Part shown: one piece after another, positions 22,874 through 37,561 of the stretch
Numbering within the stretch: position 1 is the first letter of the stretch
How the letters are laid out: each line of letters starts with the position of its first letter
NCBI RefSeq assembly: GCF_016863635.1
Contig: NZ_BOPG01000009.1
Location: forward strand, 248,001 to 312,000
DNA: 64,000 nucleotides
Reading direction: 5' to 3'
From: Virgisporangium aurantiacum
GTDB lineage: Bacteria; Actinomycetota; Actinomycetes; Mycobacteriales; Micromonosporaceae
The notes under the pieces: model-generated
What the model was told of the DNA's origin: nothing
What the model saw: the letters and a program-made list of their open reading frames with translations, nothing else
Databases searched by the model: none
Program-made: the position numbers and the translations under genes

Positions 22874-22950
<77 letters not shown>

Positions 22951-22965
22951 ATGAAGTAGCAGTTC

Positions 22966-22998
22966 AGGGCCGGTCTCCGTTTCTCGGGGACCGGCTCT
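22966..22998 (+). terminator. Terminator brought by the AICE downstream of the tRNA
   Basis: A 14-bp stem with one G-T-type imperfection region (AGGGCCGGTCTCCG / CGGGGACCGGCTCT) and a 5-nt loop starts 18 bp after the tRNA. It lies inside the element and replaces the chromosomal terminator now at 37569-37600. Confidence 0.75.
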
Positions 22999-23018
22999 GA
23001 TGCTGTTGCGGGGCATTC

Positions 23019-23039
23019 TTGGGGCAGGTTTTGGGGCAG
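23019..23039. promoter_or_regulatory. Candidate integrase arm sites, left end
   Basis: TTGGGGCAG occurs twice in direct orientation (23019-23027, 23031-23039) between attL and the int stop codon. TTGGGGCA occurs twice again near attR. Paired repeats at both ends of the element are what arm-type sites of a tyrosine integrase look like. Confidence 0.6.
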
Positions 23040-23045
23040 ACCTCA

Positions 23046-24569
23046 TCACAGGGCCTGCAGCAGGCGATCAAGAACGGCGACGGCGGATCTCGGTGCCATC
23101 GCCTTCCGAGCGCGTAGTGCCGCTTCCCAGCGCTGGGTGAGGCCGTCGCAGAGTGCTTGGCGCATGGCGTTGGTGATGTGGGAGTACCGGGCGCCGACGG
23201 ATCCGTCGAGGTGACCCATGCGGTCGTCCTTGAGGCGCTTCGGGGTGCCCATCTCGTCCATCTCGGTCTTGTGGGAGTGCCGTAGTCCGTGCGGGGTCAG
23301 CCCTGGGGCGATCGGTAGCCAGCACGCCTCGGCGCGTGCGGCGGCGCCTCGACCTCGGGCCGGGATGCCGGGCCACGGCTTGCCGAGGATCGGCACGGGC
23401 CTTGCCGCTCGACCACCGACCGGCGGGTACGAGCCGGTGGCTGCCGGCTGGAAGATCCACGACGCGAAGCCGGACCGCCGCCAGTGTGAGGCGAGTTCGC
23501 GGACGGCCGGCCCGCCACGGACGTAGTCGAGTTCCGCGATCGCCTTCATGACCTTCTCGCGGTTGCTGAGAGATACGGCCTCGGGCCGGTTCAACACCGT
23601 CGACACTGTGCCGGTCGACACGCCGGCGGCCCGCGCCACGTCGACGAGTTTCACGCCTGGCGTCCTCGCCGCACCGTTTGCCGGACGGTGGCTCCTGAAC
23701 ACGTACGTGTGCCCGTGGCATGGGCACGGCTTTGGCTGCGTCCGGTTGATGTGCTCTCGAATCAGGCGGGAGAGGAAGTCGGGCGTGTCGATCGTCCGGT
23801 AGGAGTCGTCCTTGGGTGGGCAGCGGATGAACTCGCCGGTGTCGAGTTCGTAGAGCTGCCACTCGACGCGGATGTTCGCAGGGCGGACGTACTTCGTCTC
23901 CAGGCCGACAAGCTCTCCCCAGCGGCAACCCGTGGTTCCCTTCGTCACCACTGCTACGAACTCGTCGTCTCGACCGGACAGGAGGCTTGCCCGTTCGCCA
24001 AGGAGGATCAGCTCCATGGTGGAGACGATGACCTTCTCCGGCCCACGTTGGGCATGCTTTCCCGCGCGCTTTCCGCGTCCGCGCCGGGTCGCAGCCGGGT
24101 TGACGTCGATCACGCCCTCCTCCAGCGCATCGGCACAGATGAGGTGGAGCGTGCCGTGCCAGGTCTTGATACTCGCCGGGGCGTATCCGGCCTCCCGTTC
24201 CTTCTTCTCCCACTCCTTCACGTCCTTGTTGCGGATCTGCCGGAACGTTTCCTCCTCGAAGGCTGGAAGCAGATGGTTCTCGATGTGGCGCTTGTAGTTC
24301 TGCATCGTTGATCGGGCCAGGTCCTGGCCCTGGTACCACGAGCGCACGTAGTCGCCGAACTTGATGTTGGGGTCGGCCGGTCCCGGGCGTGACTGCTCGG
24401 CCTGCTGTGCATCTTTGGCTTCCGCGAGGTCAGCGGCACGCTTGGCGTCGCGCTTGGAGTCGAAACGGGCCGGCCGACCCGTCACCGGATCCCGGACGGT
24501 CTCCTTCTTGCCGTTTGCCGACCAGTACCGCCCACGCCAGTAGCTTCCAGCGTTCTCCGGGAATCCCAT
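23046..24569 (-). CDS. int: Tyrosine integrase with an internal LacI-type DNA-binding domain
   Basis: The protein has 507 residues from ATG 24569, preceded by AGGAAA; the frame is open upstream but unrelated. Domains: Arm/AP2-like N-terminus (about 1-60), SAM-like core-binding domain (about 70-165), and a catalytic domain with R216 (GCRWGE), K253, H427-x-x-R430, H453 and nucleophile Y462, all present. Residues 305-350 inside the catalytic domain match the LacI-family headpiece (VDVARAAGVSTGTVSTVLN, then LDYVRGG), inserted between K253 and the HxxR box. The gene's 3' end faces attL, as usual. It catalyses integration into and, with Xis, excision from tRNA-Pro. Confidence 0.9.
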   Translation of the reverse strand: MGFPENAGSYWRGRYWSANGKKETVRDPVTGRPARFDSKRDAKRAADLAEAKDAQQAEQSRPGPADPNIKFGDYVRSWYQGQDLARSTMQNYKRHIENHLLPAFEEETFRQIRNKDVKEWEKKEREAGYAPASIKTWHGTLHLICADALEEGVIDVNPAATRRGRGKRAGKHAQRGPEKVIVSTMELILLGERASLLSGRDDEFVAVVTKGTTGCRWGELVGLETKYVRPANIRVEWQLYELDTGEFIRCPPKDDSYRTIDTPDFLSRLIREHINRTQPKPCPCHGHTYVFRSHRPANGAARTPGVKLVDVARAAGVSTGTVSTVLNRPEAVSLSNREKVMKAIAELDYVRGGPAVRELASHWRRSGFASWIFQPAATGSYPPVGGRAARPVPILGKPWPGIPARGRGAAARAEACWLPIAPGLTPHGLRHSHKTEMDEMGTPKRLKDDRMGHLDGSVGARYSHITNAMRQALCDGLTQRWEAALRARKAMAPRSAVAVLDRLLQAL

Positions 24570-24589
24570 ACCCGTTTCCTGCTTTCTGG

Positions 24590-24937
24590 TTAGGCGGCTG
24601 TATTGCTCGCGCTTCGGAGTCGGCGGGGAGCCCGCGCCTTGAGTTGTGTCGCGTCTGCCGATTCGGCGGGTCGTCCTTGGGTAGCTGGCTTCCGCGGCAC
24701 CGGCGTGGCGCTGAAGGTCGGCTGCTTCTCGAAAATCTCGACGATCGCGTTCACGTGGTCGTCGGTGAAGCGGTAGCTGCCGCCGATCCAGGAGAACGGG
24801 ATACGGCGCTTGCGGGCCTGCTCTTTCACCCACCATTCGGAACAGCCGAGCAGGCGAGCGACTTCAATCGGGCGGTACAAGGGCGGACGCGACGTGCCTT
24901 CCAAACCAGTCCCTTCGTCGTCACTTGTCGGGGCCAT
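24590..24937 (-). CDS. xis: Excisionase / helix-turn-helix protein
   Basis: A 115-residue protein with a MerR/excisionase-type winged HTH: YRPIEVARLLGCSEWWVKEQARKRR-like recognition helix followed by a wing with SYRFTDDHV (about residues 20-65). The basic C-terminal tail is rich in Arg and Ala. It starts at ATG 24937 and overlaps the 3' end of repSA by 17 bp; int follows 20 bp downstream. Position and fold identify it as Xis, controlling excision direction. Confidence 0.85.
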   Translation of the reverse strand: MAPTSDDEGTGLEGTSRPPLYRPIEVARLLGCSEWWVKEQARKRRIPFSWIGGSYRFTDDHVNAIVEIFEKQPTFSATPVPRKPATQGRPAESADATQLKARAPRRLRSASNTAA

Positions 24938-26627
24938 CTCGGTCCTGAGCGGCCTTGTCGAGCGCGGCCCGGATCTCGGCCCGTTGCTGGATGCGGGCGG
25001 AGACGGCTCGCAGGAGCCGGAGCTGCAGGGGCGCGACGTCGGGGTCGTCCGGGCGGGCCATCTCCCAGGCGACCGGCGCCGGCTTGCCGAGCTCGGGCGC
25101 GTCGACCGCATCGACCTGGTCGTGGGTGGTGGTGATGCCGAGCAGGGAGCGGACCCAGGCGCGGGTGTCGTGGCGGTGGTCGGCGAGGGTCTTGCCGGAC
25201 CACTGCCGGGAGACGAGCACGCGCCGGCCGCCCATGCCGAGGGTGGTCCGCTGGTGGACCTTGGCCTTGCACTTGCCGGGGTGCTGGCCGGGTCGGGCCT
25301 TCTTGGGTTGGACGCCGTAGCGGAGCCAGTTCGCGCAGCGGGGTGAGCATGGGACGTACCGGAGTTCGTGCCAGAGGCGTTCGAGGTGCCCCCGCTGGGC
25401 GTTGGTCTCGACGGCGTGGCAGGAGTCGACGGACTTGGTGAGGTACTTGGTGAGGTAGCCGATGAGCTTGTCGGCCTGCTTGGTGCCGGCGAGGACGCCC
25501 TCTGCGTGGACCTGTGGTCCGAACCGGGTGACGTGGACCGGTTCGGCGGTCTCGTCCTCGTCGAGGGCGTCGAGGGCCTGATCCCAGGATGGGAGCGGTT
25601 CCCTGGTGTCGGGGTCGACGTAGGCCTTGGCGTCGGTGTCCCAGCTGGGTGCGTGGTGGTCGGGGTAGCGGACTTCGTCTGTGGGTGGCCACCAGACCTG
25701 GTGGTAGGTGGCTGCGGCGATGCGGCGGATGAGGTCACGCGGGATGGTGCCGCGCATGGCGAAGTGGGCGTGTGGTGCAAGCCGTCGTTGGGGTTCGACA
25801 GCGCCGAAGTATTGGAGGTTGGCGCCGGCGGCTCGGCGGGCGTTCTGCCAGAACCGGTCGAGCAGGGCTGGGAAGTGGACGGCGTCCCAGGCCGCGCGCC
25901 GGTAGTCGTAGGTGTCGGGGTCCACCGGGGTGCCGTCGTTGCGGACGCGGCCGTAGCTGTCGAGGGTCAGCGTCAGGAACGTGGACGGCTGAAACACGGT
26001 GCCGTCGCGGCCGGTGAACCGCCGGCCGAGGGTCGACGGGTTCACCTTGTGCCGAGGTAGGTCCGGAGCGTCCTGGCGCCTTTTCGTTGAGCGGGTGCGT
26101 CGGGTCTTGCGTTCGGGTTCGTGTTCCTGGGGGTTGCCGTCGGCGTCGACGGGCGCCGGCGGTGGGGCGGTGAGCCGGCCGCGTAGTCCGGATTCGGTGA
26201 TGGCTTGGTCGACTTCGTCGATCGCGGCGTCGAGGTCGGCCACCTGGTCCCAGCGGGCCGCCTCCTCCATCCGTCCGCGTTCGAAGACGAAGTGTGCCCG
26301 CAGGACGATGAGCGCACATTGTCCGGCGGACGGTTCGTCGGGTTCGGGGAGTGGTTCGTCGGTGCGGTGCCAGCCTTCCCGGCACTGCTGTTGCCGCAGC
26401 CTTCTCGCCCGTTTGGCGCACGGCGGGCATTTGTCATCGCGGGTGGCGCCGCACGGCAGGTCGATGACCTGGGTGCCGCCGGTGGTCAGATCGGTGCGCC
26501 GCAGCAGGATCGGCCGGACGCAGATGCCGTGTTCCTGCGCGAGTTGCTTGAGGGCGTCGACAGCGCGTGGCATGGCGAGCCGGGCCGCGCGAGAGTCGGG
26601 CCGGACCGGTAGTTCGGTCAGGGTCAC
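24921..26627 (-). CDS. repSA: RepSA-type rolling-circle replication initiator
   Basis: The protein has 568 residues from GTG 26627, which overlaps the SpdB-like gene by 4 bp. The HUH motif H286-A-H288 (APHAHFAMRG) and tyrosines Y391/Y395 in GYLTKYLTK give the expected nickase active site. An N-terminal zinc-binding CGATRDDKCPPC (about 59-70) is typical of RepSA. By family it nicks the element's double-strand origin to start rolling-circle replication after excision. The origin is probably close to or within this gene, but I could not locate it. Confidence 0.88.
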   Translation of the reverse strand: MTLTELPVRPDSRAARLAMPRAVDALKQLAQEHGICVRPILLRRTDLTTGGTQVIDLPCGATRDDKCPPCAKRARRLRQQQCREGWHRTDEPLPEPDEPSAGQCALIVLRAHFVFERGRMEEAARWDQVADLDAAIDEVDQAITESGLRGRLTAPPPAPVDADGNPQEHEPERKTRRTRSTKRRQDAPDLPRHKVNPSTLGRRFTGRDGTVFQPSTFLTLTLDSYGRVRNDGTPVDPDTYDYRRAAWDAVHFPALLDRFWQNARRAAGANLQYFGAVEPQRRLAPHAHFAMRGTIPRDLIRRIAAATYHQVWWPPTDEVRYPDHHAPSWDTDAKAYVDPDTREPLPSWDQALDALDEDETAEPVHVTRFGPQVHAEGVLAGTKQADKLIGYLTKYLTKSVDSCHAVETNAQRGHLERLWHELRYVPCSPRCANWLRYGVQPKKARPGQHPGKCKAKVHQRTTLGMGGRRVLVSRQWSGKTLADHRHDTRAWVRSLLGITTTHDQVDAVDAPELGKPAPVAWEMARPDDPDVAPLQLRLLRAVSARIQQRAEIRAALDKAAQDRDGPDK

Positions 26628-27142
26628 CGTGGCTCCGTTCCGTTGTCGGTGCGAACGAGCGCGAGCGCTGGCAACGTCGGGAGCTGTTGGTGTGTAACGG
26701 GTTTGGTTGGTTCGTCCTGTGTGGACTGTCCTGTCGGGACGGTCGCCAGCGACTCGCCTGTGTCGCGGATGCGTGCGCCGAGTTCGACGAGGCAGATGGA
26801 GGCGACGACGATGAGTCCGTCGACGGATAGTGGGATGAGGTAGGGGGCGGCGCCGGTTTCGCCGTAGCGGGCGGTGACGCCGACCATGTGTCCGTACGAG
26901 ACCCACGCTGCGATGCCCGCGATGAGCGATGTGGAGACGAGCCGGACGACGGCCAATGCCCTGCGGTGCACCGGAACGCGGGAGATGAGTTCGACGGTCA
27001 GCAGGAGCGCCAGCGGTGGCCAGGCGGCGATGGTCTGGGAGATGGGGTTTTGGTTGGCGTGGAGGATGTTGGCGGCGACGGAGGCGATGACGCCGAGGAT
27101 CAGCGTGGCGCGGACGGCCCAGCGGACGCGGTGCAGGTTCAC
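26624..27142 (-). CDS. SpdB-like DUF2637 membrane protein
   Basis: A 172-residue protein with about four transmembrane helices in the first 120 residues (starting LILGVIASVAANILHA) and a soluble tail rich in Thr/Gln/Pro. It belongs to the DUF2637 family found next to tra genes in AICEs and Streptomyces plasmids, where Spd proteins assist spread within the recipient mycelium. Both ends overlap neighbours by 4 bp (GTGA), so it is translationally coupled to the FtsK-like ATPase and RepSA. Confidence 0.85.
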   Translation of the reverse strand: MNLHRVRWAVRATLILGVIASVAANILHANQNPISQTIAAWPPLALLLTVELISRVPVHRRALAVVRLVSTSLIAGIAAWVSYGHMVGVTARYGETGAAPYLIPLSVDGLIVVASICLVELGARIRDTGESLATVPTGQSTQDEPTKPVTHQQLPTLPALALVRTDNGTEPR

Positions 27143-28551
27143 GCCGCCTCCTTGGCCGCGTCCGGCGCGTAGCGGCTGGCGAGGTCGTGGATATCGGGAT
27201 CCGTGAGGTAGGAGAACCGCACCCGCACGGGTGAGGGGTCGCCGTCGAGGACCACGAAACCGACGCCGGGTGCGGATTGTGGGATGCGGTCGCAGAGGGC
27301 ACCGCGGTCGCGGGTGCCGTCGCCGAGGACGAGGTCGACTTCTGCCTCTTCGGTCAGCCGCAGCCCGACGCGCGTGGGGAAGAGGTTCCGGAACGGCAGG
27401 ACTTCTTTGCGGGGGTCCTGTAGGCAGGCCAGGACGTGGACACCGACCGCGCGGCCTTGTGTGAGGAGGAGGCCGAGGGTGGCCTTGATGCGGTCCTTCA
27501 ACTGCCGCTCGGTCAGATAGGCGGTGAGCGCGGCCAGCTCGTCAATGACGATGACGATCAGCGGCTCGTCGACGGTCGGGATGTGCTGGCGGGTGATACC
27601 TCGTAGCCGGGCCGCCCGCCGGCGAGCCGTGGCCAAGGCCTCATCGAGCATGTCGGCCATCGCCTTGTAGTCCTCACAGGCGAACCGGGCGAACAGCCGC
27701 TCCCCCGCACCGAGTTCCATCCCACCTTTCGGGTCGAACGCCCATACCTCCACCAGCCCCGTGGAGATGCCGCCGGCGACCGAGCGGAGGAACGACCAGA
27801 TGACCGACCCCTTCCCGGCGCCGGTCGCGCCGACGACCAACACCTGGGTGCCGAACAGGCGCAGCCGGTACGGGTCGCCGTCCTCGGTCATCGCCACCGG
27901 CAGCCCGTTGAAGTTCGGCGCCGCCGGGACCGGCAACGGCCGCACGATCGCGGAGAGCGGGTCACTACGGCGGAACGTCATGACGACGAGGTCCGGTCGA
28001 GTGCCGGGGGTGACGCGGTAGGCGATCGCGCCGAAGGTGTGGGCGAGGCGTTCGCCGGCCTTGGCGAAGTCGTCCGGGATCTGGCCGGTGATCATCCGGA
28101 TGGTGACCTGGTCGCCGGTCGCGCCGACGCGTACCCGTTTGAGGAGCGGCAGGAAGGTGTCTTCTTTGAAGGTGACGGCGAGGTTGGCGGTGGCCATGGC
28201 GGCGTGCCAGTGCCGGCGGTAGCGCATCCGCCGCCAGCGGCCGAGGACCGGCCACCACGCGAACCGGCGGAACGAGGCCAGGTCGACCAGTCGCCACACG
28301 GTCAGCAGTCCGGTCGGGATGCCGACCGCGATGACCGGGCCGGGCCAGCCGTAGCGGTGATACAGCCACGCCAGCACCGTTGCCGGGACGGTGGCATACC
28401 AGAACCGGATGTAGACCACGACGAGGCGGTAGAGGCCCTTGCAGAGCCAGCCGGCCAGCATCAGCCACAGCGGCACCCGCAGGTACGGGGTGCGGACGGT
28501 GAACGGCGCGGGCTCGATCCGCTCCCCACGGATGACGTTGATCAGCGGCAC
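27139..28551 (-). CDS. traSA: FtsK/SpoIIIE-like DNA translocase (TraSA/TraB type)
   Basis: The 470-residue protein has two N-terminal hydrophobic segments (about 26-92), Walker A GATGAGKGS at 241-249, Walker B VIVIDELAAL, and a late winged-helix-like C-terminus. This is the single protein by which AICEs move double-stranded DNA between mycelia. GTG 28551 overlaps the preceding small gene by 10 bp and the stop overlaps the SpdB-like gene by 4 bp. Confidence 0.9.
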   Translation of the reverse strand: MPLINVIRGERIEPAPFTVRTPYLRVPLWLMLAGWLCKGLYRLVVVYIRFWYATVPATVLAWLYHRYGWPGPVIAVGIPTGLLTVWRLVDLASFRRFAWWPVLGRWRRMRYRRHWHAAMATANLAVTFKEDTFLPLLKRVRVGATGDQVTIRMITGQIPDDFAKAGERLAHTFGAIAYRVTPGTRPDLVVMTFRRSDPLSAIVRPLPVPAAPNFNGLPVAMTEDGDPYRLRLFGTQVLVVGATGAGKGSVIWSFLRSVAGGISTGLVEVWAFDPKGGMELGAGERLFARFACEDYKAMADMLDEALATARRRAARLRGITRQHIPTVDEPLIVIVIDELAALTAYLTERQLKDRIKATLGLLLTQGRAVGVHVLACLQDPRKEVLPFRNLFPTRVGLRLTEEAEVDLVLGDGTRDRGALCDRIPQSAPGVGFVVLDGDPSPVRVRFSYLTDPDIHDLASRYAPDAAKEAA

Positions 28552-29997: not shown

Positions 29998-30726
29998 CTA
30001 TGCGAGGGGGTAGGTGTCCTCGATCTCGTGCCGGCTACCCGGCAGCACCAGCAGCGATGCGAGCACCGGGTCGCCGGCGGCGGTATACGCGGCGATCATG
30101 ACCGCGAGGACCGGGTCGTCCTTACCGATGTCCAGCAGCTCCGCCTCTTCCGGCGTCGGCCGGCGGGCCGTCGTCCACTCGACCGCATAGTCCCCACGGA
30201 TGTCCTTACGGGAAGCCAGATGCGCGAGCAGACTCCCCGCGATCGGTTCCGGTTTGCCCACATCGGAGCCCGCCGCCACGTCCACCGGGATGTAGATCGT
30301 GACCAGGTCGATCGGCCCATCATCGCTGACCGTGCGACGGCTGCGCCGGTAGACCGGCGTCCCTTCCGCGATGTTGAGCAGCGCGGCTACCCGTGGCTCG
30401 GCCAGCACCGGCGTCACCGACAGCAGTTCGACGGCCGTCGACTCGTCTGCTTCCAGCGCGGCCCGTGTGTGTGCCGGCGCCGTCCGTCGCGCGGTCGGCT
30501 GGCCTCGCACGAAGTTGGCCTTGCCCTGCTGGGACTCGATCCAGCCGTCCTGTTTCAACGACTGCAGCGACTTGAGCACGGTCGCTCGGGCGACGCCGAA
30601 CTCGGCGGCGAGTTGATTCTCCGACGGCAAGGCCATGCCCGGCCGGTAGGTTCCGTCCCCGATGCGCTGGCGCAGAGTGTTGAGAACGTGGATGTACTTG
30701 GGTGTTCTGGCCTCAAAAGGGGCCAT
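29998..30726 (-). CDS. GntR-family repressor, KorSA-like
   Basis: The protein has 242 residues from ATG 30726 (AGGGA 11 nt upstream; GTG 30735 is too close to it). An N-terminal GntR winged HTH (LPSENQLAAEFGVARATVLKSL, seen here as two overlapping helices at about 35-55) is followed by a UTRA effector-binding domain (about 85-235). In pSAM2, the GntR protein KorSA silences transfer and replication genes. The neighbouring inverted repeats and the operon orientation support the same role here. Confidence 0.87.
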   Translation of the reverse strand: MAPFEARTPKYIHVLNTLRQRIGDGTYRPGMALPSENQLAAEFGVARATVLKSLQSLKQDGWIESQQGKANFVRGQPTARRTAPAHTRAALEADESTAVELLSVTPVLAEPRVAALLNIAEGTPVYRRSRRTVSDDGPIDLVTIYIPVDVAAGSDVGKPEPIAGSLLAHLASRKDIRGDYAVEWTTARRPTPEEAELLDIGKDDPVLAVMIAAYTAAGDPVLASLLVLPGSRHEIEDTYPLA

Positions 30727-30794
30727 CGACGTCACCGTCCCTTGACGGATGCCACAACATGATGGAGCCAGACGTTAATAGACGTGCGCACAGG

Positions 30795-31521: not shown

Positions 31522-32241
31522 CTAGAACCGCACCCTGGACTGGAACCGCGCTCGGGCCAGCTCGACGATCGCGACCGCGCTCAACAACGCGGCCTCACGC
31601 GGGTCCTGACGCAGCAGGACCTGCCACACGACGGCGAAGATCTCGGGATCGGCGAAGTCGGTCCGGCGGATCAGAAGGCGGACCGCATCGGTGAGCGCCG
31701 CCAACTCGCGCTCCGTCCGTGGGCGACACCGCTCGACCGTGGCCAGCAGCCCCGACGGCCGCTGACCCTGCACCGAGACCGCGCCCAGCTCGTTCGCGAA
31801 CACCCGATCCACGACCGGCGCCCGCGACGGCATCGCCCGCCCCGGCCCAGCCGCCCTCCGGGCAGCGTGATGATGCTGGCTCAACTCGTCCTGCATCGCG
31901 GCAGCCCAGATCAGCAGGCAGCGATCAGCGTCGCCCAGCAGATTTCCGTCCGCGCCCAATGCCCTGTCCGTCAGCGCCCAGAAGACCCGAGGACCCGGCT
32001 TCAACCCGTGCTCGACGTCGCTGACGGCCTTCACCGGGTAGTGCACGCAGTCGGCCAGCTCCTGGCGGGTCATGCCGCGCTGTTCCCGCCGGACGGCCAG
32101 CCGACGACCGAGGCCCTTCAACACCTCGAACGACGAAGACTCACCCGCCGTTGATGGCGCCTCAGCGTTGGAAGGCACCGAGACGGGCGCGACTTGCGAA
32201 CCGGAGAAGTCGCTGTTCGTCACCCGCCCCGGTGCCAGCAT
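31522..32241 (-). CDS. XRE-family transcriptional regulator
   Basis: The 239-residue protein from ATG 32241 has an HTH at about 40-85 (RREQRGMTRQELADCVHYPVK region) and a helical C-terminal part of some 120 residues without a recognised domain. Its start overlaps the stop of the zinc-knuckle gene by one base (TGATG), which decides this start over an upstream in-frame one. It may control the flavoprotein/XRE module or the element. Confidence 0.78.
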   Translation of the reverse strand: MLAPGRVTNSDFSGSQVAPVSVPSNAEAPSTAGESSSFEVLKGLGRRLAVRREQRGMTRQELADCVHYPVKAVSDVEHGLKPGPRVFWALTDRALGADGNLLGDADRCLLIWAAAMQDELSQHHHAARRAAGPGRAMPSRAPVVDRVFANELGAVSVQGQRPSGLLATVERCRPRTERELAALTDAVRLLIRRTDFADPEIFAVVWQVLLRQDPREAALLSAVAIVELARARFQSRVRF

Positions 32242-32447
32242 CACGCCGACCTGGCCGTCGTAGGCGTCACCCTGCTCGCCGCGCCTTGGCAGTCGAAGCA
32301 ACTACGCCGTTCGCGAGGCGCCGGCGACTCGCAGCTCACCGCAGTTGAGCGGATGGCCGCCTTCGTGGTCACGTACTTCCAGCCCTTGCCAGCACACGAG
32401 GAACATCCAGCGTTCGCGGTGTCCGCTGCGGCGTACAAGCAGACCAT
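32241..32447 (-). CDS. Small CxxCxGxG-type protein
   Basis: Up to 68 residues with CSSCAGKGWKYVT near the N-terminus and CFDCQG near the C-terminus, resembling a DnaJ-type zinc knuckle. AGGAG abuts the ATG at 32447, so TTG 32438 (9 nt from it) may be the real start. The TGATG overlap with the XRE gene shows that translation reaches the stop. Comparable tiny proteins accompany XRE genes in AICEs; role unknown. Confidence 0.6.
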   Translation of the reverse strand: MVCLYAAADTANAGCSSCAGKGWKYVTTKAAIRSTAVSCESPAPRERRSCFDCQGAASRVTPTTARSA

Positions 32448-32569
32448 CTCCTACGACTCGTGCCGATCAACGAACACGAATCGTGAGGCATAAGTCACCC
32501 GAGGCGGCGCAGCCGGGTGCGGCCAGCACGGAGGTACGGCCGGAGGCCCGCACAAAAGTGCGGGTTCGT

Positions 32570-33121
32570 TCAGCGATTGAGCGCTGCCGCTACTGCGGTC
32601 GCCAGCCACCGGGGGTCGAACCGCTCAACTACCTGCGGCCCGGTTCCCGACTCGACCGCCACGGGGCGATGGTCGCCCGTATGCAGATCCACAAAGGTTG
32701 CGCCGACCGAGCGGAGTACGTCAAGAGAGGTGCTCCACGCCGGATGGCCCCACAACTTGTTGTTGACCATCGGCGCCACGACTAACGGCAGCCGCGCGCC
32801 CATCGCCGAGCAGATCGACGAGAGCGCGTAGCTGTCGGCCGCGCCAGCGGCAACCTTGTTGACCGTGTTGAAGGTGGCCGGGCAGACCACCATCGCCATC
32901 GGGTCGACATCGCTCTTCGCCGACCCCGGCGCCCGGAAGGCCAATCTCGGAGCCGCGCCGGTCACAGCCTCGACCGCGTCGGCGTCCAGCCAATCCGACG
33001 CCGCCGGCGTGGCGATGACCGACACCTGGTAGCCGCTGGTGATGAGGGATGCCGCGAGATCCGGTGTCCGAGAGGTCAACGGAGCACCGCAGACGACAAG
33101 CGAAACGGCAGGTTCGGTCAC
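32570..33121 (-). CDS. Flavoprotein of the HFCD (Dfp/PPC decarboxylase-like) family
   Basis: A 183-residue protein with the Rossmann-like start LVVCGAP, a VVCPATFNTVNKVAAGAADSYAL segment (the PATANT-like flavin/phosphate loop) around 78-100, and PMVNNKLWGHPAW around 115-128, corresponding to the PAMN...MW substrate loop. Such lone flavoproteins next to XRE-TPR regulators are frequent in actinomycete mobile elements. Whether it decarboxylates a peptide or another substrate is unknown. Confidence 0.82.
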   Translation of the reverse strand: MTEPAVSLVVCGAPLTSRTPDLAASLITSGYQVSVIATPAASDWLDADAVEAVTGAAPRLAFRAPGSAKSDVDPMAMVVCPATFNTVNKVAAGAADSYALSSICSAMGARLPLVVAPMVNNKLWGHPAWSTSLDVLRSVGATFVDLHTGDHRPVAVESGTGPQVVERFDPRWLATAVAAALNR

Positions 33122-33126
33122 GCCGC

Positions 33127-34338
33127 CTAGTCCAGCACACCAGCCCGGACGGCCAGCTTGTGCAAGGCACTCGTCTTGGATTTCTTCTGTCGTGCCAGCA
33201 TCTCGCGCACCAGCTCCCCGACCCGGGAGTTGTACCGGACCGCTTCCGGCGCGATCTCCTCAGCCTCCAGTAGATGGAGCAACGCGTCCGCGTCACGCTT
33301 GCGCTGTACGTTCGCCCACGCCAGGTCCACATGGATCTGGGAGCGACGCCCACTCAGGCCAACCGGGAGCCGGGCCGGGTCGATGTCTTCGGAGACACGG
33401 TCTACCTCACCCGGGTCGCCCAGCTCGGCCGCCACCGCCGCACGGTGCAAAGCGACGTTGGTCGGCCCGAACGCGGTCCACGCAAAGTTGCCATCCTCGC
33501 CGAGCGTCGTCGCCAGCCCGCTTGCGATGTCGAGCCGCCGGTCCGCCTCAGGCCGATCGGTCCGACGGGCCGCCGCGATCGCAGAGGCCAGCCAGAGCGC
33601 GCCACCGACGGACAACAGGGTCGGCTTCCCAGGTCCCGCTTGACGCTGCACCAGCTCGGCCATGCTGACCGCCAACCGCTCAGCGTCCTCGATCCGGTCG
33701 TTGCGCATCAGCGCGCAGACGACCTGATACGCCGCCATCCCGCGCGCCGAGAGCGAATCGGCGTCGACGGCCGCGGTGGCGCACCGGTCGGCAGCCAGCA
33801 ACGCCAGGTCGTTAACGCCCATCTTCGTCAGCAGCTTCGCCGTCACGGTGTAGGCCGACACGTACTCGTGCAGCGCCTCCCGCCTAGTGTCGCCGGCAGC
33901 CGTCCGGTGTACCGCGTCAGCCGAGGAGAGAAGCGCCGGAAGGCCAGCCACAACCTCCTGATACCTGGCCGCCTGGTACGCCTCATGAGTGCCGATGACC
34001 TGCGCCCGGAAGTCTTCCAGCGCGATCGGCTCCTCCGGTCCGACGTCGAGAAGACTGTCGTACCGGCTGAAGAACGTCCGCACCTCATCGATACCGTCGA
34101 GCACCGCGCCACCGTTGGGCGCGTACCGCCAAGGGCGACCGATCAGCGCCTCAACCTCGACGTGCAGGAGTTTGGCCATATCAAGCAGGACCGACAGCCG
34201 ATCAACCGACCGAACACCGCGCTCGACCTGCGACAACCAAGACTCTGACCGCCCGACGAGGCCCGCCAGCGCAGCCTGACTCAGCCCACGCCTCCGTCGG
34301 TACGCTGCGATCCTCTCACCGACTGACCCGGAGACCAT
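33127..34338 (-). CDS. XRE-type regulator with TPR-like C-terminus
   Basis: The protein has 403 residues. The N-terminal HTH is at about 8-62 (RRGLSQAALAGLVGRSESWLSQVERG-like, LLDMAKLL). The remainder is helical, TPR-like, resembling the peptide-sensing regulators of Gram-positive bacteria. It sits 5 bp upstream of the flavoprotein gene on the same strand. A link to signal sensing is inference from architecture. Confidence 0.83.
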   Translation of the reverse strand: MVSGSVGERIAAYRRRRGLSQAALAGLVGRSESWLSQVERGVRSVDRLSVLLDMAKLLHVEVEALIGRPWRYAPNGGAVLDGIDEVRTFFSRYDSLLDVGPEEPIALEDFRAQVIGTHEAYQAARYQEVVAGLPALLSSADAVHRTAAGDTRREALHEYVSAYTVTAKLLTKMGVNDLALLAADRCATAAVDADSLSARGMAAYQVVCALMRNDRIEDAERLAVSMAELVQRQAGPGKPTLLSVGGALWLASAIAAARRTDRPEADRRLDIASGLATTLGEDGNFAWTAFGPTNVALHRAAVAAELGDPGEVDRVSEDIDPARLPVGLSGRRSQIHVDLAWANVQRKRDADALLHLLEAEEIAPEAVRYNSRVGELVREMLARQKKSKTSALHKLAVRAGVLD

Positions 34339-34428: not shown

Positions 34429-36210
34429 CTACGAAAACGCTGGGATCGGCAAGTCGTTGGCTGTGCGAAGGTACTGGACCATCCTGCCAATCATTTCCTC
34501 CAGATCGAACAGGCCACTTGGCTGTCCAGTCGTCTCAACCACCCGTTCGGCGATTCCTACCTTATTGGGCCGTTTTTTGACAGTGACAAATCGGTCTTCG
34601 TATTGGCCATCGCCTGCGGACGGCTCGACAGTCTTGTGAACCGCCTTGGCGGCCGCGTTGAAGATCTCGCACGGAATGTAATTCTCGATTTCGCGTCCCG
34701 CTGTCACCCATGCAATCGCGCCAGATTCTTCGAAACTTTCCACGACGCGTCGCTTGGTTGAATTAATATCATCTTCGGCAACTCGCTTGTCCGAGTCGAT
34801 AACAATGATCATGTTGCGGTTGATTCGAACCAGGCTAACGAAATCATCGACATTGTAGTCATAGAAATCCGACTCCGAACCCGTGAGGTGCGCAATCAGC
34901 CTGCCTCCGTAAAACATGATCGAGTAATGGATTCCTTCAATAAGTTCCGGTGCACGTTGAGAAATCCAATGGTTGATATAGATCCGGTCAGAAGGGCCCT
35001 CAACCCAGATCACCGCGTTGCTTTGGAGAATATCCGATGCGCGGTAACCAAGGTGCTGCGAAACCCGTGCACGTTGTGCGGGAGTAAGTGCCGCTTCGGT
35101 GACCGTCCCCTCGCCTACCGAATATCCGATCCTAATGACTGAGACGGCAGGATCATCGAGCATGTGCGCCGAATGCGTGCTCAGTAGGTATTGATTATTG
35201 GTCGTCGCCAAGTATCGAGTAAGCCTACGCAACAGAATTGGGTGAAGATTAATCTCAGGCTCCTCGATGCAGATCAGTCGCCCGTCGTAAAAAGTCGCAA
35301 TAACGGCAAGAATCGTAGCCTGAGAGATTCCTCTACCTAGGTTTTCTAGCGGCAGTACTCGATCGCCAAGGCTCACATGAACTGTCCCGCGGTTGTGGGG
35401 AACCAGAATCTGTGCAGTATCGTCTTCCAAAACATCCTTAAGAAACCTGTTGATTCGCAGAAACCGTGCGGAATCCTGCCGGTATCGATCGGCGGTTGGA
35501 GCCTGAAGCGCTTGTAACAGTCCCGGCAGGCCAAGCCCGGATGTATCAAATTTGTCGGGGTCAGGGGTGCCAGTGCTTGGTGAAATCGCCCGGAGTGGAG
35601 GGACCATTACCACCTCAGGATTTGGAATCAGCGAATGCCACCTGTCCAAGACCGAGACGAGATTCGAGGTGAGATCGGATGTATTACGGAAGAGACGTGA
35701 ACTCAAAGAAGACACGAGGCCATCCCTACCGCTGAACTCTTCGGACAGTCGTGTCAATTGCTCGCCGTCCCTTTTGAGCTTTCCGTCAACCTCCCGGAAC
35801 AGGAACCAAACCAAATCTTCGGCGCGGTCTGTTCGGCGGAGAGCTTGGCTCCCAACGAGCTGTCGCAGTACCGCATAGACGTCATCCGTAGGCTTGGGGG
35901 CGTTGGGCAGAATTCCAACTAGCGAATCCAACAACTGGGCGTTATCCCCGGCGAGCGCGACGCCCAATCGGACCTCCGGCACATCCACCCCATCACCTAA
36001 GATCGGCCGATCTAGGGAGGACATCTCCAAGTCCTGTGCTAGCTTTGCAATTTTCGGAAGCCATTTCTCCGCGCTGAGTAAAATGTTGCTCTTCCCGTTG
36101 TTGTTGTGGCCCGCAATCACGGTTACGTTTCCAAGTGGGGTAATATATTGAGGCTTTGAGTAGAAACTCCGGTATCCGCAAACCATGAAGCCAGGAACAA
36201 TGACGCTCAC
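34429..36210 (-). CDS. OLD-family ATPase-TOPRIM endonuclease, candidate defence protein
   Basis: The 593-residue protein from GTG 36210 has an ABC/SMC-like ATPase with Walker A G34-HNNNGKS41, signature NLGRGIS, and Walker B LICIEEPEINLHP. A C-terminal TOPRIM nuclease has a glutamate in WVEGPSD, the DSD metal pair in IIVIDSDKR, and GREIENYIP. That is a complete class-1-like OLD arrangement. No GajB-type helicase or other partner is adjacent. Base composition is clearly lower than its surroundings (near 50-58% GC in lines I counted, against about 70%), so it was recently acquired as cargo. Antiphage or anti-plasmid function is inferred from the family. Confidence 0.85.
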   Translation of the reverse strand: MSVIVPGFMVCGYRSFYSKPQYITPLGNVTVIAGHNNNGKSNILLSAEKWLPKIAKLAQDLEMSSLDRPILGDGVDVPEVRLGVALAGDNAQLLDSLVGILPNAPKPTDDVYAVLRQLVGSQALRRTDRAEDLVWFLFREVDGKLKRDGEQLTRLSEEFSGRDGLVSSLSSRLFRNTSDLTSNLVSVLDRWHSLIPNPEVVMVPPLRAISPSTGTPDPDKFDTSGLGLPGLLQALQAPTADRYRQDSARFLRINRFLKDVLEDDTAQILVPHNRGTVHVSLGDRVLPLENLGRGISQATILAVIATFYDGRLICIEEPEINLHPILLRRLTRYLATTNNQYLLSTHSAHMLDDPAVSVIRIGYSVGEGTVTEAALTPAQRARVSQHLGYRASDILQSNAVIWVEGPSDRIYINHWISQRAPELIEGIHYSIMFYGGRLIAHLTGSESDFYDYNVDDFVSLVRINRNMIIVIDSDKRVAEDDINSTKRRVVESFEESGAIAWVTAGREIENYIPCEIFNAAAKAVHKTVEPSAGDGQYEDRFVTVKKRPNKVGIAERVVETTGQPSGLFDLEEMIGRMVQYLRTANDLPIPAFS

Positions 36211-37391: not shown

Positions 37392-37410
37392 TTGGGGCAC
37401 GCTTGGGGCA
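37392..37410. promoter_or_regulatory. Candidate integrase arm sites, right end
   Basis: TTGGGGCA occurs at 37392-37399 and 37403-37410 in the same orientation as the two copies beside attL. They lie about 110 bp inside attR. Confidence 0.6.
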
Positions 37411-37516
37411 GCAGCGCCGATATCGTCCCCGGAACGCCGTGCCAGACCAACGCACACCAACGCCATGACCTGCGCATACGCCGAAGTCGCCGGTCACAAC
37501 GGCTGTAACAACCTGA

Positions 37517-37561
37517 TTCGGGACGAAGAGGTCGTCGGTTCGAATCCGGCCACCCCGACAG
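37517..37561 (+). repeat. attR of the AICE (45-bp direct repeat)
   Basis: An exact copy of 22906-22950: the 3' part of tRNA-Pro from the anticodon loop, without the 5' half. It marks the right boundary of the element and is the original chromosomal tRNA 3' end. Confidence 0.95.

Follow-up and report, generated by a model that had tools for sequence, protein, structure and literature searches.

A LacI-type headpiece carried as a module within the catalytic domain of actinobacterial tyrosine integrases

In regulators of the LacI family the DNA-binding headpiece comes first, ahead of the hinge and the ligand-binding domain, and the usual job of such headpieces is to bind operators for repression. 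The locus described here raises the question of what a headpiece of this kind does within the catalytic half of an integrase, and whether it may still read DNA there. The gene, int, lies in a stretch of 64,000 nucleotides of Virgisporangium aurantiacum DNA, analyzed at its full length and here called the window (Table 1). From its sequence, the product is classified as a tyrosine recombinase, on account of both its catalytic residues and its core-binding and catalytic fold, and recombination activity is predicted. Pfam places a phage-integrase SAM-like domain at residues 71-121, with 28.9 bits; the match to the C-terminal part of Phage_integrase, at residues 423-466, scores slightly under its cut-off (25.6 against 27.1 bits). 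A PDB sequence search assigns the front part of the protein to the phage-integrase domain and the insert to LacI-type repressors. The catalytic set is complete (R216, K253, H427xxR430, H453 and Y462) and all six residues are invariant in the 80 aligned integrases (79 from genome loci plus that of the window). In a wider set of 288 sequences, R216 and K253 are each present in 288, H427, H453 and Y462 in 286 and R430 in 282.

Inside this otherwise conventional enzyme, the Pfam LacI model (PF00356) matches residues 308-350 with a score of 56.6 bits, the cut-off being 27, and an E-value of 2.3e-15, and the same stretch matches the solved LacI headpieces 2bjc and 1cjg and the LacI-type repressor 3h5o in the PDB sequence search. 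The integrase hence contains a three-helix HTH of the LacI headpiece type, scoring above the gathering cut-off, and the chain then continues directly into the integrase motif HWRRSGF, the hinge and ligand-binding domain of the LacI family being absent. The earlier note on this DNA had recognized a LacI headpiece at about residues 305-350, had placed it between K253 and the HxxR box, and had held that all catalytic residues remain; the match, the position and the intact catalytic set are all borne out. The residues equivalent to S16, T19, S21 and N25 of LacI, which we take to contact DNA phosphates, are kept in 264, 273, 272 and 271 of 274 headpieces, respectively. At the positions corresponding to residues 17, 18 and 22 of LacI (T319, G320 and N324), the headpieces mostly present T (207/274), G (241/274) and N (204/274); the window integrase itself, unlike the family-typical N, has T at residue 324. 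Taken jointly, the 13 DNA-contact positions are not conserved significantly above the remainder of the headpiece (permutation p 0.19).

An AlphaFold model built from 85 sequences reaches a mean pLDDT of 90.7 and a pTM of 0.76 (with 18 sequences the pLDDT was 60.9). Block means over residues 311-350 lie between 84 and 97, and the linkers are of low confidence, with pLDDT under 50 at residues 296-304 and a mean of 60 for block 351-360. Structure prediction, which the earlier note had linked to the question of whether the insert projects from the catalytic domain, yields a folded headpiece between low-confidence linkers, its placement relative to the rest of the enzyme being tentative. After the module come, in the model, helix 365-378, a region containing short strands, and HxxR. 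According to the accessible text on XerH (PMC5241119), helix K of its catalytic domain lies in the major groove, at the outer half-site of the core. By analogy, helix 365-378 may take the place of XerH helix K, in which case the module would extend outward from the rim of the core complex.

Table 1. Features of the integrase gene and of the element that carries it (window coordinates)
Feature	Position	Strand	Basis or remark
tRNA-Pro(CGG), integration target	22874..22948	plus	ARAGORN; integrase faces tRNA
attL, 45-bp repeat	22906..22950	plus	exact repeat; starts in anticodon loop
P' spacer, CAGATGAAGTAGC then AGTTCA (22961-22966)	22948..22966	plus	candidate headpiece site; poor TGAAAC match
P' arm-type repeats GGGGCA, at 23010, 23021 and 23033	23010..23038	plus	
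int, tyrosine integrase with internal LacI headpiece	23046..24569	minus	507 aa
Helix 365-378, directly after the module	23436..23477	minus	model; putative counterpart of XerH helix K
Inserted module, residues 294-361 (headpiece and both linkers)	23487..23690	minus	alignment with LacI-less sisters, where missing
LacI headpiece proper, residues 305-350	23520..23657	minus	Pfam 56.6 bits; AlphaFold helices 308-315, 319-327, 334-347
N-terminal arm-binding-type domain, residues 1-60	24390..24569	minus	AlphaFold model; arm-class association of residues 23, 22, 43, 53
xis, HTH_17 excisionase-like	24590..24937	minus	PF12728, 28.5 bits; cut from longer open frame, start approximate
repSA, pSAM2-type replication initiator	24921..26699	minus	PF20199, 320.8 bits; cut from longer open frame, start approximate
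FtsK/SpoIIIE-type transfer ATPase	27139..28551	minus	PF01580, 36.9 bits
GntR-UTRA regulator	29998..30735	minus	PF00392, PF07702
P arm-type repeats GGGGCA, at 37394 and 37405	37394..37410	plus	
Two ACCAACG repeats, 10 bp apart	37446..37462	plus	probable excisionase sites
TGACCTG accessory motif of P arm	37466..37472	plus	
attR, copy of 45-bp repeat	37517..37561	plus	exact repeat

The headpiece is not a peculiarity of this genome. PF00356, aligned at the same place, is present in all 120 of the homologues listed, which are the best 120 of 1121 above threshold. Among the closest 80 of 298 relatives located in a scan of GTDB genomes, 79 loci are intact and all 79 encode the headpiece (L041, with two internal stops, was excluded from the protein counts). 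In a class sample of 394 genomes, for which three candidates per genome were scored, four besides that of the window give nearly full-length matches with E-values below 1e-250, and a further nearly full-length match (L100, E 7e-128) also has the headpiece. The collected sequences number 288, of which 274 carry the headpiece and 14 cleanly lack it, which shows that the stretch is not ordinary core present in all family members, a possibility that the earlier note had named. In the LacI-less relatives (about 45-57% identity), YVFxG joins H[WP]RRSxF through a turn of a few residues, the headpiece forming a neatly delimited unit, some 60 residues long, in a loop of the catalytic domain. In one related integrase (L103), a long insert of another kind lies shortly before the place of the headpiece, suggesting that the region tolerates other insertions.

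Presence and absence were mapped on a maximum likelihood tree of 70 integrases (49 with the headpiece and 21 without), computed after removal of the module columns; L109 was excluded from it and L103, whose insert is a different one, was scored as LacI-less. The state of the headpiece changes seven times on this tree (six to seven across bootstrap trees, at least four being forced by well-supported branches), a number of changes that carries no direction, gain and loss being indistinguishable. Its absence from several lineages indicates that the headpiece is dispensable. Headpiece and backbone distances are correlated (r 0.547, with none of 500 permutations as high), which speaks against frequent recent exchange of the headpiece. 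To judge from these sequences, the fusion is common in actinobacteria, with repeated presence and absence. Outside chromosomes, plasmid records gave four integrase matches, two of which cover most of the query, phage records gave one weak match to the integrase, and viral contigs yielded a single relative with a LacI-integrase (L091, an IMG/VR contig). The plasmid LacI-integrases are on the Streptomonospora plasmid phiM2 (L089) and the Streptomyces plasmid pSITFR-21c (L090), in one of which the integrase lies near RecT and lambda-exonuclease genes. Many such integrases are named 'LacI family DNA-binding transcriptional regulator' in databases, a designation that hides the integrase family and will mislead the annotation of mobile elements.

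In the window, int belongs to a 14.6-kb element inserted in tRNA-Pro(CGG), with an exact 45-bp repeat at its two ends. The combination of int, xis, a RepSA-type initiator and an FtsK-type transfer gene in one element, together with the tRNA gene and direct repeats, identifies it as a putative AICE of the pSAM2 kind, known here from gene content and att repeats, and we take the GntR-UTRA regulator, by its position, to be KorSA-like. A stretch homologous to xis was found by tblastn upstream of the headpiece-bearing int in 79 of 81 regions (that of L058 being on the other strand).

The DNA that surrounds the core offers several candidate partners for an additional reader. The arm repeats of 63 elements fall into four classes, TTCTCCC (25 elements), GGCTCCC (23), CACTCCC (9) and TTCTCCA (6). 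The highest mutual information with arm class, in a statistic that ignores kinship, belongs to residues 23, 22, 43 and 53 (ranks 1-4 of 507), and by the same measure the reading-helix residues 320, 319 and 324 rank 95th, 138th and 258th of 507. The headpiece was accordingly dropped as the reader of the arm repeats, the class of which tracks residues 23, 22, 43 and 53 and not 319-324. The reading helix is nevertheless not wholly independent of lineage, as A occupies residue 320 in 8 of the 9 elements of the CACTCCC class. The association of residues 23, 22, 43 and 53 with arm class in these 63 elements, kinship being ignored, might point to a recognition code of the arm-binding domain. The TGACCTG/CAGGTC motifs were likewise set aside as headpiece-specific sites, since by eye they occur in P arms of both genome kinds.

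The best lead for a headpiece site, though a lead and not a result, is the P' spacer, which by sequence resembles a half-operator, TGAAAC, of free LacI regulators. In headpiece-bearing elements at tRNA-Pro, a spacer of 12-14 nt separates the end of the tRNA from AGGTCA (66 of 67 attL parsed, one omitted), and its modal end is GAAACACC, then AGGTCA. In 28 of the 66 spacers GAAAC is found at one and the same position. TGAAAC with at most one mismatch is present in 36 (4.6 after shuffling); among random letter arrangements of TGAAAC, only TGAAAC itself and GTAACA (40/66, a better score) reach 36 of 66. The spacer of the window reads TGAAGT at this place, with two mismatches to TGAAAC. Free actinobacterial LacI regulators of the xGTVSN type possess a headpiece and reading helix like those of the integrase, the one encoded in the genome of the window (L002) sharing 65% identity over 46 residues. 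When 21 of them were considered (L002 plus 20 taken from the best headpiece matches), a CG-centred palindrome was found upstream of 10 and not found upstream of 11, and 7 of the 10 palindromes contain GTTTCA. Six of these seven operators come from near-identical, apparently orthologous regulators and the seventh is the palindrome upstream of L002, GTGAAACGTTTCAC, so that they amount to about two independent cases. In the place of the spacer, attL sequences with intact LacI-less integrases (L164, L166, L167 and L176) have only 1-2 nt, as do those with integrase fragments (L158 and L159); one of the four with intact integrases, L122/L176, lies at tRNA-Pro. The spacer is absent from L024, a headpiece-bearing locus at tRNA-Val whose attR was searched for and not found, and spacer-like gaps occur at tRNA-Val in L161 and L163, where no headpiece-bearing integrase was found within 1.5 kb. 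The signal is confounded with the tRNA-Pro target and the spacers are related by descent.

What is observed, then, is a LacI headpiece in an integrase with intact catalytic residues, an att repeat, clean presence and absence among relatives, and a reading helix that stays largely constant despite differing arm repeats. We predict, with about even confidence, that the headpiece, held in a loop of the catalytic domain, gives the integrase a second, tethered contact for reading DNA in the complex at the attachment site. The module would be suspended at the foot of the helix that lies outermost on the core half-site, from where a tethered headpiece could reach flanking or looped DNA; with neither a LacI-type hinge nor a partner domain, it would read a single half-site, and through this contact the integrase complex on attP would be made firmer or be oriented. 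The least certain step is to place this site within the 12-14-nt P' spacer, as a half-operator of GAAAC type adjoining AGGTCA. A more elaborate version, which we advance tentatively and think rather unlikely to hold in full, would make the headpiece a swappable third reader: the N-terminal domain would read the arms, the clamp the core and the monomeric headpiece a TGAAAC-type half-operator beside the AGGTCA of P', as a plug gained or lost many times with the rest of the enzyme unchanged.

Other roles for the headpiece must be weighed against this second contact. It might read the P-arm array of ACCAACG-type repeats, given that nnnAACG is the form of a LacI half-site, which ACCAACG resembles. 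The P arms compared were 25, taken from genomes with headpiece-bearing integrases (24 loci, L131-L203, plus the window) without enforcing their pairing to a single element. Among them, CCAACG occurs in 11 and the looser CCRAM, at -92 to -59 from the core, in 19, with two CCRAM 10-11 bp apart in 8; no CCRAM was found in this interval in the other six (L131, L150, L188, L193, L195 and L203). CCAACG is, however, absent from six attR-like P arms of five genomes with LacI-less integrases, which by eye hold other repeats, and the Xis helix differs as well, reading KASWLKEQ or KPSWLNEQ in four of those five genomes and mostly S[EA]WWVK in headpiece-bearing elements. Both differences suggest that the ACCA-type arrays are Xis sites, and the accessible text of PMC11963761 describes one-turn arrays bound by wHTH proteins such as BldC. 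These direct repeats are thus probably filament-type excisionase sites, and we set the array aside as a headpiece site, considering that reading improbable. We regard as slightly less probable again that the headpiece is an operator-binding module through which the integrase represses its own operon in the manner of a classical LacI repressor. A reading helix of the xGTVSN type, as in free actinobacterial regulators, would suit this role, but no hinge or ligand-binding domain of the LacI type stands behind the headpiece, and in the window 20 nt lie between xis and the int behind it (24569 to 24590). Moreover, when stretches of up to 8 kb ahead of int were compared, no gapless 14-bp palindrome proved common to more than 4 of 81 elements, and a shared gapless palindromic operator was dropped on this ground; gapped palindromes, coding sequence included, are common to up to 31 of the 81. 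Of the two roles proposed in the earlier note, a second DNA contact is therefore plausible, in view of the conserved phosphate-contact residues and of the intact modelled headpiece beside the helix expected to touch the outer core site, and autoregulation of int finds no support among the gapless palindromes.

The headpiece could also set the target tRNA, with tRNA-Pro chosen in its presence and tRNA-Val in its absence. In its favor, 62 of the closest 80 headpiece-bearing loci hold tRNA-Pro(CGG), and LacI-less or fragmentary integrases (L097, L099, L101, L106 and L108) adjoin tRNA-Val(CAC); of the other 18 loci, 17 have no detected tRNA and one (L024) has tRNA-Val(TAC) only. Yet L122, which is LacI-less, adjoins tRNA-Pro(CGG) and has a candidate attR at a distance of 57.6 kb, the headpiece-less L105 is at tRNA-Ala, and the half-site sequence GAGGTC is common to both main tRNA targets; contradicted by L122 and by L024, the headpiece as tRNA chooser was dropped, and we give it very little credence. 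Finally, the module may no longer read DNA at all and may serve as a spacer or as a protein contact, either with Xis or between integrase subunits. The repeated clean absence of the module, the missing LacI hinge and the specificity positions (T, G and N, against Y, Q and R in the LacI of E. coli) are all congruent with such a role, which we nonetheless hold to be unlikely, as the phosphate-contact residues are almost invariant and would be needless in a mere spacer.

To our knowledge, insertions of a whole domain in the catalytic half of a tyrosine recombinase, with all catalytic residues intact, are uncommon. A Foldseek search with the integrase model returned, as best matches and at 14-15% identity, the Tn1549 integrase (6en2) and lambda integrase (1z1b), with Cre on DNA lower down; these chains (314 and 350 residues, respectively) are shorter than the 507 aa of the window integrase. 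Both enzymes consist of core-binding and catalytic domains, preceded in lambda integrase by an N-terminal arm domain; neither chain is known to contain a headpiece and, similarly, XerH is not known to have a domain inserted ahead of helix K. The integrases of pSAM2-type AICEs share with that of the window the tyrosine integrase itself, the association with replication and FtsK-type genes and insertion into the 3' portion of a tRNA gene (PMC3218068, Ghinet et al. 2011), and in the accessible text of that survey LacI appears once, in a figure legend and as a separate transcriptional regulator, an internal headpiece going unmentioned. Literature searches at title and abstract level, covering few subscription papers, returned no description of an internal LacI headpiece in an integrase. 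The internal headpiece is real, widespread, modular and, as far as searched, undescribed, and most likely provides an additional DNA contact. That nature provides relatives both with the reader and without it, at a single exact position that tolerates it, makes this position a candidate place for building recombinases with added DNA specificity, and opens the question of what the headpiece of a transcription factor contributes when recombination takes place.

Several minor observations were made on the same element. In the integrase, a CxCH motif is near-invariant (C282 and C284 in 288 of 288 sequences, H285 in 280) and C416 is found in 246 of 288; C282, C284, H285 and C416 might form a metal site in the catalytic domain. 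A terminator-like hairpin seen by eye at 22966-22998 lies between the arm repeats and the tRNA and is also present in the attL of headpiece-bearing loci, its stem kept and its sequence differing among elements. The cargo of the element includes, on the minus strand, two HTH_31 proteins and a Flavoprotein-domain protein (31522-34338) and a 593-aa AAA/OLD-like ATPase (34429-36210) with partial matches to the Old and GajA defence models.
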